Source: Synergistaceae bacterium (GTDB taxonomy: Bacteria; Synergistota; Synergistia; Synergistales; Synergistaceae). Taken from it: a DNA stretch of 59,050 bases. Numbering within the stretch: position 1 is the stretch's first letter; every line of letters starts with the position of its first letter. Positions 3,606 to 58,806 of this stretch are shown here, in pieces. The DNA lies in contig JAUNJZ010000013.1 of assembly GCA_030533085.1 (NCBI GenBank), forward strand, positions 1-59,050. The letters are read 5' to 3'. The notes beneath the pieces are model-generated. The model was not told the DNA's origin. It ran no database searches and saw only the letters and a program-made list of their open reading frames with translations. The translations under genes were made by a program, and so were the position numbers.

Positions 3606-5925
3606 GGCGCGGGTATATCCTGTCGTTCCCGTCAGGGAGATGATCATCTTCCCGGGGGTCGTCTCGCCGCTTTTCATAAGCCGCCCAAAGTCGATATGCG
3701 CCGTTGAAGAGGGTGCGGAGAACGAGCGGCTGATTTTCATAACGGCTGAGAAGAAGCCATACGGGGAGACTGTAAATACAGATAATCTTTACAGCGTCGG
3801 CACTATATGCAGGATGCTGCAAAGCGTCCGCATGCCTGACGGTATGCTGAAGGTGGTCGTCGAGGGGGAGAAGAGAGGCAAGGCGGATAAATTCGCCGCG
3901 CGGGATTCTTTCATCAGCGCCGGAGTCGTCCCCTTTGATTCAAAGCGCGAGAAGATGACGCTTGAAATAAGCGCGCTGATGCGCCTCGTAAGGAGCGAGT
4001 TTGAAAAGAATGTGCAGCTCGACTCCAAGCTGCCTGACGACATTTTCCGCTCCGTGAGCGACATATTGGACCCGGAGGTGCTCTGCGATATAACAGCCTC
4101 TCACAGCCGTCTCGATATAACGGAGAAGCAGCGGCTGCTGGAGACTGTGAATGTCGTCGATAGGCTTTCGCTGCTGGTGAGGATGCTCAAGAATGAAAAT
4201 GAGCTGCTCAGCTATGAGCAGGAGCTTGAAGAGCGGGTGCAGGCTGAGATAGACAAGGATCAGCGTAATTATTACCTCCGCGAACAGCTCAAGGTGATCA
4301 ACGAGGAGCTCGGAGGGGAAAGCTCAGCCTCGGAGGTGGAGGAGCTGCGCGCTGCGGCGGCTGAATCCGGTATGCCTGAGGCGGTGATGCAGAAGGTGAC
4401 GAGGGAGATCGGGCGCTTCGCGAAGCTCGCGCCGCTTTCGCCGGAGGCCGCCGTGTCAAGGACTTACATAGAAACAATGATAGAACTGCCCTGGAAGAAA
4501 TCGACGGAGGACGACCTTGACATCGCCAACGCCAGAAAGGTGCTTAACGCTGATCATCACGGTCTTGAAGAGGTAAAGAGGCGCATCGTGGAGTTTCTCG
4601 CGGTCAAAAAGCGCGCCGGCAAGGATATGCGGGGGCAGGTGATATGCTTCGTCGGCCCTCCGGGGGTCGGAAAGACCTCTCTCGGCAAGTCTATAGCCCG
4701 CGCTATGGGCAGAAAGTTCATCAATATATCGCTGGGCGGTATGCATGACGAGGCGGAGATACGCGGACACCGCCGCACCTATGTCGGCGCGCTGCCGGGG
4801 CGCATCATACAGAAGATAAGGCAGTGCGGCTTCAATAATCCGCTGATTCTGATGGACGAGATAGACAAGCTCGCCTCCGACTACAGGGGCGACCCTTCCT
4901 CCGCGCTGCTCGAGGTGCTTGACCCGGAGCAGAACTGGAATTTCACGGATAATTTCCTTGAAGCGCCCTTCGACCTGAGCAAGGTGATGTTTATTACAAC
5001 TGCGAACAGCACGGCGACGATTCCGGGGCCGCTGCTTGACCGCATGGAGATAATCCCCCTGCCCGGATATGTGATGGAGGAGAAGCTGAAGATAGCGAAG
5101 AAGCATCTTATCCCGCGCATTATCAGGGAGCATGGGCTTACAAAGGATGAATTTTCCCTCTCCGACACGGCTTTGAAGGATATAATTTCCTCATACACGA
5201 TGGAGGCCGGAGTGCGCTCGCTCGACAGGCAGATTGCCAAGCTCGCGCGCAGGGTGACTATGGAGCTGTCGGAGGGCGGCGATGAGACGGAGGCTTCCGC
5301 TGTGCTGACAAAGGAGAGGGCGCGCGAGATACTGGGCGCGCCGAAGCTGCACAATACGCGGATACCTAAGGGCGACGCCGTAGGTACGGCGATAGGGCTT
5401 GCATGGACCGAAGCCGGCGGAGATGTGATACTTATCGAGTCGGCTGTGATGGACGGCGGCGGCAAGGTCTGTTATACGGGAAATCTGGGCGAGATCATGC
5501 AGGAGTCGGCGACGACGGCGCTCGCCTATCTGCGTTCGCACGCGGGAAGCTACGGACTTTCCGGCTTCGAGTGGAATAAAAAGGATATCCAGATACATGT
5601 GCCTGCCGGAGCCGTGCCAAAGGACGGCCCGTCCGCTGGGATAACGCTGGCGCTTTCACTCTGCTCTACGCTTACGGGGCGCGCGGTGAACACAGCCTTC
5701 GCCATGACGGGGGAGATGACTCTGCATGGCAATGTGCTGCCGATAGGCGGCATCAGGGAAAAGATTCTCGCCGCTAAACGCCTTGGCATAAAAGATATAT
5801 TACTGCCCGAGGATAACAGAGCCGATGTATCGGAGCTGAGCGAGTGGATACTTAAAGGGATGAAGCTGCATTATGTTTCGGATATATCCGAGGTTTTCGA
5901 GCTTGCGCTGAGGGCTGGTGTATAG
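3589..5925 (+). CDS. lon: Lon ATP-dependent serine protease
   Basis: Lon is a hexameric AAA+ protease for damaged and regulatory proteins. This 778-residue protein has the usual order: N-terminal substrate-binding domain (start [18 protein letters not shown]), a coiled-coil middle, Walker A GPPGVGKT near residue 355, Walker B LMDEIDK, and a C-terminal protease domain with the catalytic Ser in PKDGPSAG near 680 and the Lys in GGIREK near 725. Its ATG lies inside the end of clpX and its stop overlaps the possible GTG start of engB, so clpX-lon-engB look like one transcript. Confidence 0.96.
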
Positions 5926-40898: not shown

Positions 40899-40917
40899 CT
40901 TTAGAGAGGTGAGAATC

Positions 40918-42186
40918 ATGATTTTGGAATTCAGCATAGAAAATTTTCAGGTTTACAGTACCGAGGTTAAATTCAACCTGGAAGCGGATCTGAGAACAAA
41001 GAAATTCCGTTCCAATGTTATCGCTTCGCAGCAGGGAAATATCCTGAAAACAGCCGCCATTTACGGGCCGAATAATACCGGGAAAACATGTTTGATGAAC
41101 GCGTTCCGCGCATACCAGGCTGTACTGCTGAATAAGCCGATTAAATTCCGCTCAAACTTGTTTACTGATTCAGACGCTTTCAGCTTAGGCGCCGTTTTTT
41201 TATGGAACGGTAAAAGATATGAGTACTTTTTCCGGTACGACACAAAGTTAAGAATATTTATAGAAGAGGGCTTTTCGCATATCTATCTTGACAGATACGG
41301 AAACAAATCAAAAGAGCTGTTTTTCTATAGAAACACAGAAAATAAGAGCGCTGTCAGCGGTAGTGACAAACTTAAAGAGGCTATAAAACTTTCTTCTAAA
41401 GACAATATCCTGATAAACACACTGGACGCTGCTGAATTTCCTCTGTTACAGGAGGCGCGAGAGGCGCTAAAGGGTTTTGCCGAGAATGTCACAGTATTGT
41501 CAATGCAGTCGCTGCCGCCATATAAAACGATAGAAATGCTCAAAACCCCAGAAAGTCCAGAGGCAAAGCAAATCATCGAACTCATAAAAAAGTCCGATCT
41601 TGATATTGATGATTTTAAATATGACGAAAGATTTTCAGAAGGCGTTTTATTTGAGGCAGATGAAGAGACTGAAAGGGCTAGAGGACTCCAGCACCTCGAA
41701 AAGGCTGCGGATGTTTTTAAATTGACATCCATCCATAAAGGAAAGGCGCTGCCGAGTATAATTTTTGATTCGCTGGGCACAAAGAAAATAGTCTCGCTCG
41801 CAGGCTATCTGGTTGAATGCCTGAATAAAGGCGGCTGCCTGCTTATCGACGAACTGGACAGCGGCATTCACTTTAAACTTTCACGCGCTATAGTCTCTGT
41901 CTTCAACAGTTCACTGAACGACCGCGCACAAATGATTTTTTCAACGCATGACGCGAGCCTGCTTGATATAAAAACGCTCTTCCGCAAAGAACAGATATGG
42001 TTCACAGATAAGGTCGAGGATGAAGTGTATCTCTACTCGCTATCCGACTTTACGGCGGAAAATTCAGGCATACGCGCCGATTCGGATCTCTATGAACGCT
42101 ATGCAAAGGGATTTTTGGGGGCGCTGCCAGACCCTTCGTTGATAGATGTTCTTATAGACATACATGGCGGTGAACAAAATGAATAA
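40918..42186 (+). CDS. AAA ATPase of the AbiLi/RloA type (putative phage defence)
   Basis: This 422-residue cytoplasmic ATPase starts MILEFSIENFQ, typical of SMC-like/OLD-type ATPases in defence loci. Walker A GPNNTGKT lies near residue 48. DSLGTKKIVSLAGYL is the signature region of the RloA/AbiLi (AAA_15/AAA_21) group, followed by Walker B GGCLLIDELDSGIH and a switch His in STHDASLL. ATG 40918 is fixed by the promoter and ribosome binding site. The partner gene downstream is translationally coupled (overlapping ATG/stop) and RloB-like, as in AbiL and RloAB pairs. Lower GC than neighbours points to acquisition. Defence function is inferred, not shown. Confidence 0.75.
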   Translation: MILEFSIENFQVYSTEVKFNLEADLRTKKFRSNVIASQQGNILKTAAIYGPNNTGKTCLMNAFRAYQAVLLNKPIKFRSNLFTDSDAFSLGAVFLWNGKRYEYFFRYDTKLRIFIEEGFSHIYLDRYGNKSKELFFYRNTENKSAVSGSDKLKEAIKLSSKDNILINTLDAAEFPLLQEAREALKGFAENVTVLSMQSLPPYKTIEMLKTPESPEAKQIIELIKKSDLDIDDFKYDERFSEGVLFEADEETERARGLQHLEKAADVFKLTSIHKGKALPSIIFDSLGTKKIVSLAGYLVECLNKGGCLLIDELDSGIHFKLSRAIVSVFNSSLNDRAQMIFSTHDASLLDIKTLFRKEQIWFTDKVEDEVYLYSLSDFTAENSGIRADSDLYERYAKGFLGALPDPSLIDVLIDIHGGEQNE

Positions 42187-43081
42187 ATTTCCGCCGTTCT
42201 TGCAGCGCCAAAGATTTCGGCGCTCCGTATGTTTGATCCTTGAAGGATACGAGGAATATTATTATTTTAAGAAACTCCTGACTTTGGGTGTATTTTCTCC
42301 CGTTTACGATATCAGACTTATCAATGCGAAAAGCGCAAGCAGTATTCCTGCAAAATATCAGGATGCGCTTGCAGGCAACTCATATTCGATAGTTTTGATT
42401 GTCTGCGACAGGGATAGAAAACCGCAGGAATATCTCAGGATACTTCGTGGAATTGAAGATATCGTTGGAAACGGCAGGGGAGAAGAAATTATTACTTTTA
42501 CTCGTCCATGCACTTTACAGGTCATTTTATATCACTTTGGCGAAGCTGCATTGACAACTCAGGCAAAACGCGCAGCAAGAGCCGACGTGCTACGCCTGAC
42601 AGGCGTGGCGGATTACGACGCCCACCAGGCTCAGTTGAACGATATCTGTAGTAAAATACACCGTAAAAGCTGGGATGCCATGCGCGAACGCCTGAAACTA
42701 CTAAGCGCCAATCCAGATGATATACCGTCAAGCAACATGGGTTTGCTTTTTGAACGGTTATGCGCTGATGATTTTGCATGGATTGATGACTTGAATAAGA
42801 GCATTCTTGCGAGATATAACGAGGCGACTGAAATGCCGACAATAATGTACGGAACAAAAAACTGCCCAGACGTGCGCAGCTCGCTTGCGGAAACAGAGGC
42901 CGGAGGGCTGGATATAGAATTCAGAAGCTTTGACGGCAGCGTAACAAATCTTAAAGAATTCATCCGCCTGCGCGACAGCCGCGCGGAATTTGACGAGATA
43001 AAGAAAAACGGCCTGATTGGCATTCCCTGCTTCGTAACGGAAGAGGGAAAAATATGTTTTGATATCAGTGAAGTCAAATAA
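42179..43081 (+). CDS. RloB/AbiLii-like protein fused to a glutaredoxin-like domain
   Basis: Residues 1 to about 210 look like RloB, a TOPRIM-like nuclease fold: the acidic motif LEGYEEYYYFKKLL (EGxxExxxYF), VLIVCDRDRKP (DxD), and FTRPCTLQVILYHFGE, which recalls the PC-x-L-HF motif of RloB. Residues from about 219 on read as a glutaredoxin-like domain: MPTIMYGTKNCPDVR, NLKEFIRLRD, AEFDEIKKNGLIGIPCFVT. The CxxC site is CPDV, so only the first Cys remains; the cis-Pro segment GIPCF is kept. An internal ATG at 42833 with GAGG upstream could also yield the glutaredoxin part alone. ATG 42179 overlaps the ATPase stop; 42164 is a possible alternative. Confidence 0.65.
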   Translation: MNKFPPFLQRQRFRRSVCLILEGYEEYYYFKKLLTLGVFSPVYDIRLINAKSASSIPAKYQDALAGNSYSIVLIVCDRDRKPQEYLRILRGIEDIVGNGRGEEIITFTRPCTLQVILYHFGEAALTTQAKRAARADVLRLTGVADYDAHQAQLNDICSKIHRKSWDAMRERLKLLSANPDDIPSSNMGLLFERLCADDFAWIDDLNKSILARYNEATEMPTIMYGTKNCPDVRSSLAETEAGGLDIEFRSFDGSVTNLKEFIRLRDSRAEFDEIKKNGLIGIPCFVTEEGKICFDISEVK

Positions 43082-43121
43082 TCGAAGATACAAAAATAAA
43101 CTTTTAAAGCGAGGGATAAGA

Positions 43122-44183
43122 ATGCAACAGGAAGGAAGGAAGGAAGGAAGGAAGGAAAATTTTATTGAACTGGAGTTTGTTCGAGTAGCGGCATGTTTAA
43201 TGGTAATAGTATTACATGTAGCCGCGGCAAATTTCTATACCTTTGGCCCGCATTGGGCTGTCTCAAACACAATTCATAGCTTTGTCCGCAGCTGCGTTCC
43301 GCTGTTTTTCATGATAAGCGGCGCGCTTTTGTTAAAGAAAGGAGCGGCCGACGATCTCTCCTTTTTTATCAGAAAAAGATTTGTCAGGATTTTGCCATCG
43401 CTGATTTTCTGGTCTTCGCTGAGCTGTCTGGCATACGTCTGCTTAAAATCAGAACCTCCCGTATACTTCTTTTTAAGATTTTTTGGCACCAGCGGATTCT
43501 ACCATCTGTGGTATCTGTACGCTTTGGTTGGTCTCTATCTGCTGATACCGATAGTGGGAAAATGGTATGTCAACTCTTCCGGACGTGAGATAGCTTTCTT
43601 TCTGGCGGTATGGTTTGCGGCCTGTTCCTGTTCTACCGCTTCGTCGCTTGTCAGCGAGTTATCCGGAAGAAACGCTGACATGCTGAAGCTGTATAATATA
43701 TCGGAATTTGCAAGCTATATCGGCTTCTTCGTTCTCGGTACATTCCTCTTTGAAGAGAGAAACCGCTATCTGATTGAAAAAGTGAAGCCGCTTGCCGCGT
43801 TCCTCGTCTTTGTTATCTGCGGCCTGATGATTGCCGGAATGACCGCTGTCTATTCCGAATATATGTCCCAGCCCAATCAGTTGTTTTACAAATACAGATG
43901 TCCTTTGGTAATTATCGCGGCGGTATCCTTTTTTATTTTTTCAATGAGGCTGAAGTATAACAATACCAGAATAAATACTCTCATCGCTAAAATATCAAAA
44001 TACAGCTTTGGAATATACTGCGTTCACGCCTTCGTCCTATACAAAATACCCGTAAGCGAACTTTGCTCCATGACAGGCATTACATGGCTCACAATATTGT
44101 TGGTGAGTATCTTTGTATTCCTCGTTTCTCTGATGATCTCCGTGATATTAAAAAAATTGCCGCTTCTGTCGAAGGTCGTTTGA
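43122..44183 (+). CDS. Acyltransferase family 3 membrane protein with a phase-variation-type repeat
   Basis: Acyltransferase-3 proteins O-acetylate surface polysaccharides or related glycans. The N-terminal helix has ELEFVRVAACLMVIVLHVA with the catalytic-type His, followed by SCVPLFFMISGALLL and RKRFVRILPSL; about ten hydrophobic segments complete the 353 residues. The start at ATG 43122 has GCGAGGGA upstream. Codons 3-11 are made of seven AGGA units (encoding EGRK repeats), so gain or loss of one unit would shift the frame. The gene follows the RloB-like gene by 40 bases and ends in a strong terminator. Confidence 0.85.
   Translation: MQQEGRKEGRKENFIELEFVRVAACLMVIVLHVAAANFYTFGPHWAVSNTIHSFVRSCVPLFFMISGALLLKKGAADDLSFFIRKRFVRILPSLIFWSSLSCLAYVCLKSEPPVYFFLRFFGTSGFYHLWYLYALVGLYLLIPIVGKWYVNSSGREIAFFLAVWFAACSCSTASSLVSELSGRNADMLKLYNISEFASYIGFFVLGTFLFEERNRYLIEKVKPLAAFLVFVICGLMIAGMTAVYSEYMSQPNQLFYKYRCPLVIIAAVSFFIFSMRLKYNNTRINTLIAKISKYSFGIYCVHAFVLYKIPVSELCSMTGITWLTILLVSIFVFLVSLMISVILKKLPLLSKVV
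43129..43156 (+). repeat. Tetranucleotide repeat (AGGA)7 at the start of the acyltransferase gene
   Basis: Seven uninterrupted AGGA units lie within the first dozen codons. The unit length is not a multiple of three, so slipped-strand changes would switch the gene between full-length and truncated product, as in known contingency loci. Confidence 0.9.
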
Positions 44184-44193
44184 TAAGGAAATT

Positions 44194-44236
44194 AAGCAAG
44201 GGAGTCCCGGCGTTTCAGGGCCCCCCTTGCTTTTTT
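44194..44236 (+). terminator. Terminator after the acyltransferase gene
   Basis: AAGCAAGGG (44194-44202) pairs with CCCTTGCTT (44224-44232) and T6 covers 44231-44236. It separates the plus-strand acyltransferase from the converging aminotransferase gene and partly overlaps the latter's stop codon. Confidence 0.85.
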
Positions 44237-57888: not shown

Positions 57889-58806
57889 CTAGGGAAGCTG
57901 GCCAAGTTTTTCATAACCGGCGGTGTCCAGTGCCGCAATTAACGCTTCTTTTGTCTTATAAGGCTGGGTTGGATCTGCGGGAGAAATACAGGCGTATTTG
58001 TTTCGTACATATGTTATGCCGTCAACCACAACTACATATCCTCTTCGGATAGGTGTGGAATTAGCAGGCCACTGATTAACATCGGATTGTTCGTTGGCGA
58101 ATGTCACTGTGTACAAGATTTTCCCGCTATTGTCCGTTACAGGATAATTCCACCAATACAGTGCGCTAAGAGAAGGTCCTCTATAAAGACCGCTATTTTG
58201 GATATACGTCTCATAATAATCCTGTGCCATCTGTATTGGAGGATTAGCGGCGTAATAGTCTTCATAAAGCTTCGCTTTCCATTGGCTAATGGCGTTCTGG
58301 TTTGCTAGGCCTGTATAGGGAAGGTTCGCAGCCAAAAAGCTCAGCCACGAGGTCTCAAAACGATAGCGCGCGCTTGGGTCTACATCCTCATCGATATGCT
58401 TGGTGCATAGGATCCATTTCTTTTCCGCGCCGTCCACCAGATACCAGTGAAGCCCGATGGTTCCGCCGCTCTGGCAGAGGCCGTCGATGGCCGCGCTGTT
58501 GTCCGAAACGCTAAAAGTCACTCTGTTCCCGATATCGCAGTTGTCTATCGCACTTTGCAAAATTTCGGTGGTGGTTTTAGAGGCCGCGCTTGCCGCGCGT
58601 TCAACATTGAAAGCGGATAAAAGTGTGCGCCGGTTCGCCTGACAGACGACTTCCTCTGATTTTTCCAGCGGAGCGGAGGTTGAGACAACGAGTAATCCGG
58701 CAAGGATGCCGACGATTATGACGGCGACTAAAATCTCAACGAGGGTAAAAGCTCTGTTCTTAGCATATTTCTTATGAATGAATGAATGAATGAAATTTTT
58801 CTTCAT
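57889..58806 (-). CDS. Type IV prepilin-like (type II secretion pseudopilin-like) protein
   Basis: The N-terminus has the class III prepilin signature: a basic leader, then RA-FTLVEILVAVIIVGILAGLL with the conserved Glu at +5. Ala instead of Gly stands at position -1 of the cleavage site, which prepilin peptidases often tolerate. The leader is longer than usual (18 residues) because codons 5-11 contain a (TCAT)5 repeat. The remaining 280 residues form a large globular domain I do not recognise. A strong AGGAGGAG site precedes ATG 58806. It may be a minor pilin or pseudopilin. Confidence 0.8.
   Translation of the reverse strand: MKKNFIHSFIHKKYAKNRAFTLVEILVAVIIVGILAGLLVVSTSAPLEKSEEVVCQANRRTLLSAFNVERAASAASKTTTEILQSAIDNCDIGNRVTFSVSDNSAAIDGLCQSGGTIGLHWYLVDGAEKKWILCTKHIDEDVDPSARYRFETSWLSFLAANLPYTGLANQNAISQWKAKLYEDYYAANPPIQMAQDYYETYIQNSGLYRGPSLSALYWWNYPVTDNSGKILYTVTFANEQSDVNQWPANSTPIRRGYVVVVDGITYVRNKYACISPADPTQPYKTKEALIAALDTAGYEKLGQLP
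58774..58793 (-). repeat. Tetranucleotide repeat (TCAT)5 at the start of the prepilin-like gene
   Basis: Five ATGA units on the plus strand (TCAT on the coding strand) follow the start codon by about four codons. A change of one unit would shift the frame of the entire protein. Confidence 0.85.

Follow-up and report, generated by a model that had tools for sequence, protein, structure and literature searches.

A predicted AGGA-repeat switch at the start of an acyltransferase gene in a Synergistaceae bacterium and tetranucleotide tracts across the family

Introduction

Can a short repeat just inside the start codon of a membrane acyltransferase gene switch that gene on and off? The question is raised by a stretch of 59,050 nucleotides from a Synergistaceae bacterium (hereafter the window), in which the coding sequence of an acyltransferase opens into a run of AGGA units. 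Tetranucleotide contingency loci are best studied in Haemophilus and Neisseria, and a mixed surface decoration is a classic means of escape from phages and host recognition. Among such loci is oafA, whose discovery paper is said to be that of Fox et al. in 2005. According to the excerpts on which our citations by PMC number rest, oafA of nontypeable Haemophilus influenzae is a LOS O-acetylase gene switched by GCAA repeats, and alleles without repeats, which are not phase-variable, also exist in H. influenzae (PMC3938747). LOS acetylation in the oafA ON variants inhibited the production of LOS-specific antibodies and protected against opsonophagocytic killing (PMC11868660). Among the papers listed by searches of the open-licence PMC literature (in two of them the best 15 of 76 and 12 of 460), and in the excerpts of PMC3711429, we found no report of repeat-mediated phase variation in Synergistota, which agrees with the initial annotation of this DNA, where the phenomenon had been called poorly described in the phylum. 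Tetranucleotide contingency loci are apparently unreported so far for Synergistota.

A perfect AGGA tract lies just inside the acyltransferase gene

Sequence reading and Tandem Repeats Finder gave a tract of 29 bp at 43129-43157 (AGGA x 7.25, 100% matches), whose onset lies 7 nt after the A of the acyltransferase ATG (43122). The unit is perfect, its 4 bp are not a multiple of three, and the 7.25 copies stand just inside the coding start (Table 1). The initial annotation had placed (AGGA)7 just after the start codon, and seven whole units do occupy 43129-43156, with one extra base at 43157. It had also assigned the peptide EGRKEGRK to codons 3-11; the tract does encode this peptide, but at codons 4-11, and its onset falls inside codon 3. 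In 100 simulated sequences of 59 kb (first-order Markov, with the dinucleotide transitions of the window), the longest period-4 run was 16 bp against the 29 bp observed, which rules out a chance origin of the AGGA run.

Table 1. Coordinates of the features in the window.
Feature	Position	Strand	Basis
Shine-Dalgarno-like GAGGG, 6 nt 5' of the ATG	43111..43115	+	Sequence reading
Acyltransferase ATG start codon	43122..43124	+	ORF list, sequence, start scan
Perfect (AGGA)7 with one further base, a predicted switch by slipped-strand mispairing	43129..43157	+	Sequence, Tandem Repeats Finder, frame arithmetic
Acyltransferase-3 (PF01757) gene, 353 aa, MQQEGRKEGRKENFIELEFVRVAAC..., ON at 7 units	43122..44183	+	ORF, Pfam, PHROG, alignment
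Putative intrinsic terminator, GCAAGGG...CCCTTGC then six T	44196..44236	+	Sequence reading; scan listed the inner part, 44216-44229
Prepilin-like gene, 305 aa, PF07963, ON, start-proximal tetranucleotide tract	57889..58806	-	ORF, Pfam, frame arithmetic
(TTCA)5.25 tract of the prepilin leader; its onset is 12 nt from the A of the prepilin ATG	58774..58794	-	Tandem Repeats Finder

At seven units, frame arithmetic puts the ATG in frame with a product of 353 aa, that is, ON (this length is counted from the ATG at 43122; the program's ORF list starts the gene at an upstream TTG). From the same ATG, the ORF falls to 12 aa with five units, 20 with six, 16 with eight and 24 with nine, and the full frame is restored at four or ten units. 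Across counts of 3 to 12, every number apart from 4, 7 and 10 closes the ORF after 12-28 codons. The starts open into the tract within 90 nt upstream were TTG 43059, GTG 43068, ATG 43122 and two ATA codons, all in frame with the gene. No ATG, GTG, TTG, CTG, ATT, ATC or ATA over the same distance was open into the tract in the other two frames, which rules out rescue of the OFF state by an alternative start. With only truncated ORFs at six or eight units and no rescuing start, changes in unit number should abolish the acyltransferase. By this arithmetic the frame shift that had been predicted on gain or loss of a unit holds, the ORF collapsing to 16 or 20 aa, respectively.

We consider it likely (probability about 0.85) that the tract is a slipped-strand translational contingency switch of the acyltransferase. 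Slipped-strand mispairing at replication would add or remove 4-bp units within the acyltransferase gene, and the ATG would share a frame with the acyltransferase body only at counts congruent to 7 modulo 3 (4, 7, 10...). Cells ON and cells OFF for this one membrane acyltransferase would then coexist in a clonal population, giving a mixture with and without one acyl decoration, and the benefit could be escape from phage or host recognition. The phage angle is plausible because an abortive-infection pair, detected by PADLOC as AbiLi-like (E 2.1e-64) and AbiLii-like (E 7.4e-8), lies directly 5' of the acyltransferase at window 40912-43081.

By design the locus is like oafA in that a tetranucleotide tract stands in an O-acetylase-type gene, and the tract-free AT3 homologues found here are like the repeat-free oafA alleles. 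Unlike oafA, it belongs to another phylum and uses another unit, AGGA here and ACAG in a relative (PMC3938747, in excerpt).

The encoded protein is an AT3 family member

By the features tested, the product is a member of the AT3 family, as had been claimed from the sequence. It matched PF01757 with E 9.3e-37, covering positions 2-325 of the 326 in the profile, and the PHROG 'O-acetyltransferase' with E 2.1e-25. The excerpted description of AT3 proteins gives the motifs R-X10-H in TMH1 and RXXR at TMH3 (PMC9833829). Both were present in the alignment, the first as R21 and H32 and the second as R-F-V-R after the R-K of loop 2-3, and both are intact in the G043 ortholog described below as well. 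The protein is like OafB in being a PF01757 member with these two motifs; unlike OafB, it is a stand-alone AT3 protein of 353 aa with no SGNH domain (PMC9833829). The phase variation of an OafB homologue is epigenetic according to the excerpted report (PMC9558356), whereas the switch predicted here is repeat-based.

The AlphaFold2 model, built from nine aligned sequences, had a mean pLDDT of 82.7 and a pTM of 0.86. Its top Foldseek match, HGSNAT, was weak (TM 0.47, E 0.075), and searches against the sequences of solved structures (up to E 0.1) and against NCBIfam gave no match. By analogy with its family, the enzyme is most likely to acylate, probably with acetyl groups, a glycan that is exported or displayed on the cell surface. 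Among the window ORFs no glycan cluster adjoins the gene, whose neighbours are the AbiL-like pair and an aminotransferase-like gene, and its target is therefore a guess.

Start-proximal tracts recur in the same genome

Tetranucleotide tracts were counted over the 2.63-Mb genome with two degenerate-pattern scans that covered all 33 tetranucleotide classes, and from which tracts below 23-26 bp can escape. The scans returned four perfect tracts, (AGGA)7, (ACAG)7.5 on C1, (CAGG)6 on C2 and (GAAG)5.5 on C37, the first two being the longest; Tandem Repeats Finder added a fifth, the 21-bp (ATGA)5 at window 58774. No other di- to heptanucleotide tract exceeded the thresholds in 363 kb of own sequence (window included), where mononucleotide runs were limited to three, each of 9.

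For four of these five tracts, the distance from the A of an ATG to the onset of the tract is 7, 9, 12 and 21 nt. Against position density, this start-proximity has a P of about 3e-6 by a generous count in which 2.8% of positions qualify, and a P of 9e-5 without the window (ATGA)5 tract, which was found only through being in the window. Two of the four start-proximal tracts are ON (the acyltransferase and the window prepilin) and two are OFF (the C2 prepilin and the C37 protein). Loss or gain of one unit would leave 24 or 12 aa of the window prepilin, and its paralogue on C6, 61% identical, has no tract. The C2 prepilin-like gene carries (CAGG)6 just after ATGCGAATA (L098:3341-3364, G000:C2:45340). 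The C37 gene encodes a protein of 1551 aa with a signal-peptide-like start and no Pfam match, and has (GAAG)5.5 after its ATG (L037:1980-2001, G000:C37:17980).

Tracts in other Synergistaceae genomes are found in both phases

Among 52 family genomes, 4-periodic matches were obtained in at least 19 with a 24-mer and at least 37 with a 27-mer, in part chance matches to the degenerate patterns; some genomes, for example G022, G026, G035 and G046, have several long true tracts each. We examined 60 unique tracts, a partial and non-random sample among the matches listed, and 43 of them had a Shine-Dalgarno sequence and a start open to the tract within 60 nt, compared with 5142 of 20000 random positions. 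The remaining 17 had no such pair within 60 nt, so not every family tract is a start-proximal switch. Unit numbers differed between related copies. Four G026 elements, 85-88% identical in their pairwise matches, had 12.75, 10.75, 14.75 and 13.75 units of GCAA, and the AACC count was 6.75 in G004 and 7.75 in G003.

Phase was assigned to 12 gene-body tracts in six genomes, chosen because a start lay upstream and one frame held a body of 87 aa or more: four in the genome of the window, two in G043, two in G004 (a GT8 glycosyltransferase and a Big_2/GLUG protein) and four in G020, G022 and G032. Three were ON and nine OFF, near the 1:2 of random phase; two of the 12 start with GTG or TTG, and several have a weak Shine-Dalgarno sequence.

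TCTG repeats are present at L107:2751-2816 and L129:2510-2540, where they code for SVCLSVCLS, the hydrophobic core in a signal-peptide-like start. The gene product is small and rich in tyrosine and proline; the gene is ON in G022 and OFF in G020.

The ortholog has a different tract at the same place

A search of the genome contigs found five relatives of the acyltransferase, and a gene at E 1e-40 or better was present in 2 of 185 Synergistota genomes, the window's own included. The best relative lies in a Synergistes sp. MAG, another genus (L006, contig G043:C30), with 44-46% identity and a different gene neighbourhood. Its start reads ATGAACAAA, followed by (ACAT)3(ACAG)4 at the same place as the AGGA tract. 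This ortholog is OFF: the ATG leads to a 15-aa peptide and an intact open body of 343 aa stands in another frame, to which one added unit would join the ATG by frame arithmetic. Related loci are thus found in both phases with intact bodies, the acyltransferase ON and its ortholog OFF. A second tract gene of G043 (L147:2400-2962, G043:C114), a GNAT acetyltransferase whose neighbours form a DegT/FdtA/epimerase sugar cluster, has (ACAA)3(ACAG)6 after its ATG and is OFF too. That the acyltransferase and its ortholog differ in tetranucleotide at a shared position, and in phase, fits selection for a switch and not for a peptide. The phase variation suggested by the initial annotation accordingly gains support from the frame arithmetic, from an OFF relative with a different unit and from the two ON and two OFF start-proximal tracts of the own genome.

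Three other explanations were weighed against this background. The tract could be a neutral microsatellite, produced by chance slippage and in frame by accident, with a rate of variation too low to be useful. By the standard of H. influenzae tracts, seven units are short for fast switching, so the switching rate may be low or modest, and this shortness speaks for neutrality, as do the 17 of 60 family tracts that are not clearly start-proximal. Against it stand the different unit in the OFF phase at the same place in the ortholog, the closeness of four of the five own-genome tracts to a start codon (21 nt or less) and the intact bodies that follow OFF tracts, and we hold neutrality to be unlikely.

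Alternatively, the repeat could be kept for its product, either a basic EGRK-rich tail or a purine-rich, Shine-Dalgarno-like stretch that tunes initiation; AGGAAGG does resemble the Shine-Dalgarno core and adjoins the start. The N-terminus of the ortholog, NKTYIHTDRQTD..., is nevertheless wholly unlike that of the acyltransferase and has no Shine-Dalgarno-like unit, and the distant AT3 proteins (22-31% identity) have ordinary N-termini with neither tract nor EGRK tail. Residues 1-9 of the acyltransferase are predicted to be disordered, with a pLDDT below 50 in the AlphaFold2 model, which makes a structural role for the tract-coded residues improbable. On these three results a functional peptide tail was rejected, and retention for the product in either form is very improbable. 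Finally, assemblies can miscount repeats, and the true majority state could be 6 or 8 AGGA units, yet 29 bp lie well inside a short read and a count of seven, being in frame, agrees with the gene being intact. An artefact is very unlikely.

Leader ORFs and a restriction specificity gene carry further tracts

Besides the contingency switch that we propose for the acyltransferase, in which the tract is inside the gene itself, many family tracts were located inside short leader ORFs, with the start codon 18-65 nt 5' of the tract in those measured. They lie mostly 120-600 nt 5' of same-strand genes, often of exported type (lipoprotein-like, YadA-type adhesin, prepilin-like, GLUG and DUF6273 proteins), the remainder being methyltransferases, a flavoprotein and DUF1266. 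The dispersed leader ORFs often start MVFTDA and comprise L101-L126 and L142-L146 (g10-g12 genera), L133-L137 (G015) and L138, L139 and L141 (G046). Small-RNA genes with their own promoters were considered as the identity of these tracts and rejected, because a Shine-Dalgarno sequence with a start and same-strand downstream genes fit leader ORFs better.

In 14 of 19 selected leaders, which include mutually related copies and are not independent, two frames closed within 35 nt and one stayed open for at least 50 nt, a pattern seen at 2069 of 10726 control positions. The other five depart from it, which counts against a uniform leader model. In the G046 copies L138, L139 and L141 two of the frames meet a stop 3 and 10 nt beyond the tract. 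The third continues and enters (L138) or passes (L139, L141) a hairpin with a stem of about 18 pairs and T's behind it. The upstream ATG of L138 meets a stop before the tract, and this copy is not a clean case. Among four loci scanned for promoters and terminators, a long-stem terminator was called in L138 only; the hairpins of L139 and L141 were recognised by sequence reading. In the own genome, the C1 tract, (GTCT)7.5 at L018:3258-3287 (G000:C1), occupies what may be a short leader ORF, with a long-stem hairpin that has no T run behind it, 178 nt 5' of a TAXI-type (NMT1_3) solute-binding gene.

By analogy, the leader tracts are possible phase-variable attenuators of the pil1 kind. The pil1 leader peptide of Streptococcus gallolyticus, with its GCAGA repeats, resembles the leader-type tracts of the relatives and of the own C1, differing from the Synergistaceae leaders in its pentanucleotide unit and from the acyltransferase in being a leader peptide (PMC3894217, in excerpt).

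We see about even odds that a tetranucleotide 'phasome', comparable to the one in Haemophilus influenzae, operates in Synergistaceae in three layouts. The first would consist of tracts just after the starts of surface or surface-sugar genes (the acyltransferase, prepilins, the GT8 glycosyltransferase, the GNAT acetyltransferase and large exported proteins), and the second of a tract that separates the target-recognition parts in a type I restriction specificity gene. In the third, one of the three frames of a leader ORF would continue beyond the tract and, in some copies, enter or cross a hairpin in the manner of pil1; if true, this would be a family-wide version of the mechanism described in Streptococcus (PMC3894217, in excerpt). 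Tetranucleotide contingency loci appear to be abundant in several Synergistota genera.

At L140:2700-2746 (G046:C36), (ACAG)11.75 separates two open frames, each with a match to type I restriction specificity domains (PF01420), and this locus is a probable phase-variable HsdS. An Rfam search of 12 loci returned no family at the tracts and, elsewhere, only two cobalamin riboswitches and one tRNA. The two riboswitches (L102:3366-3488 and 3908-4111, minus strand) lie 5' of a G022 MVFTDA leader element and on the same strand.
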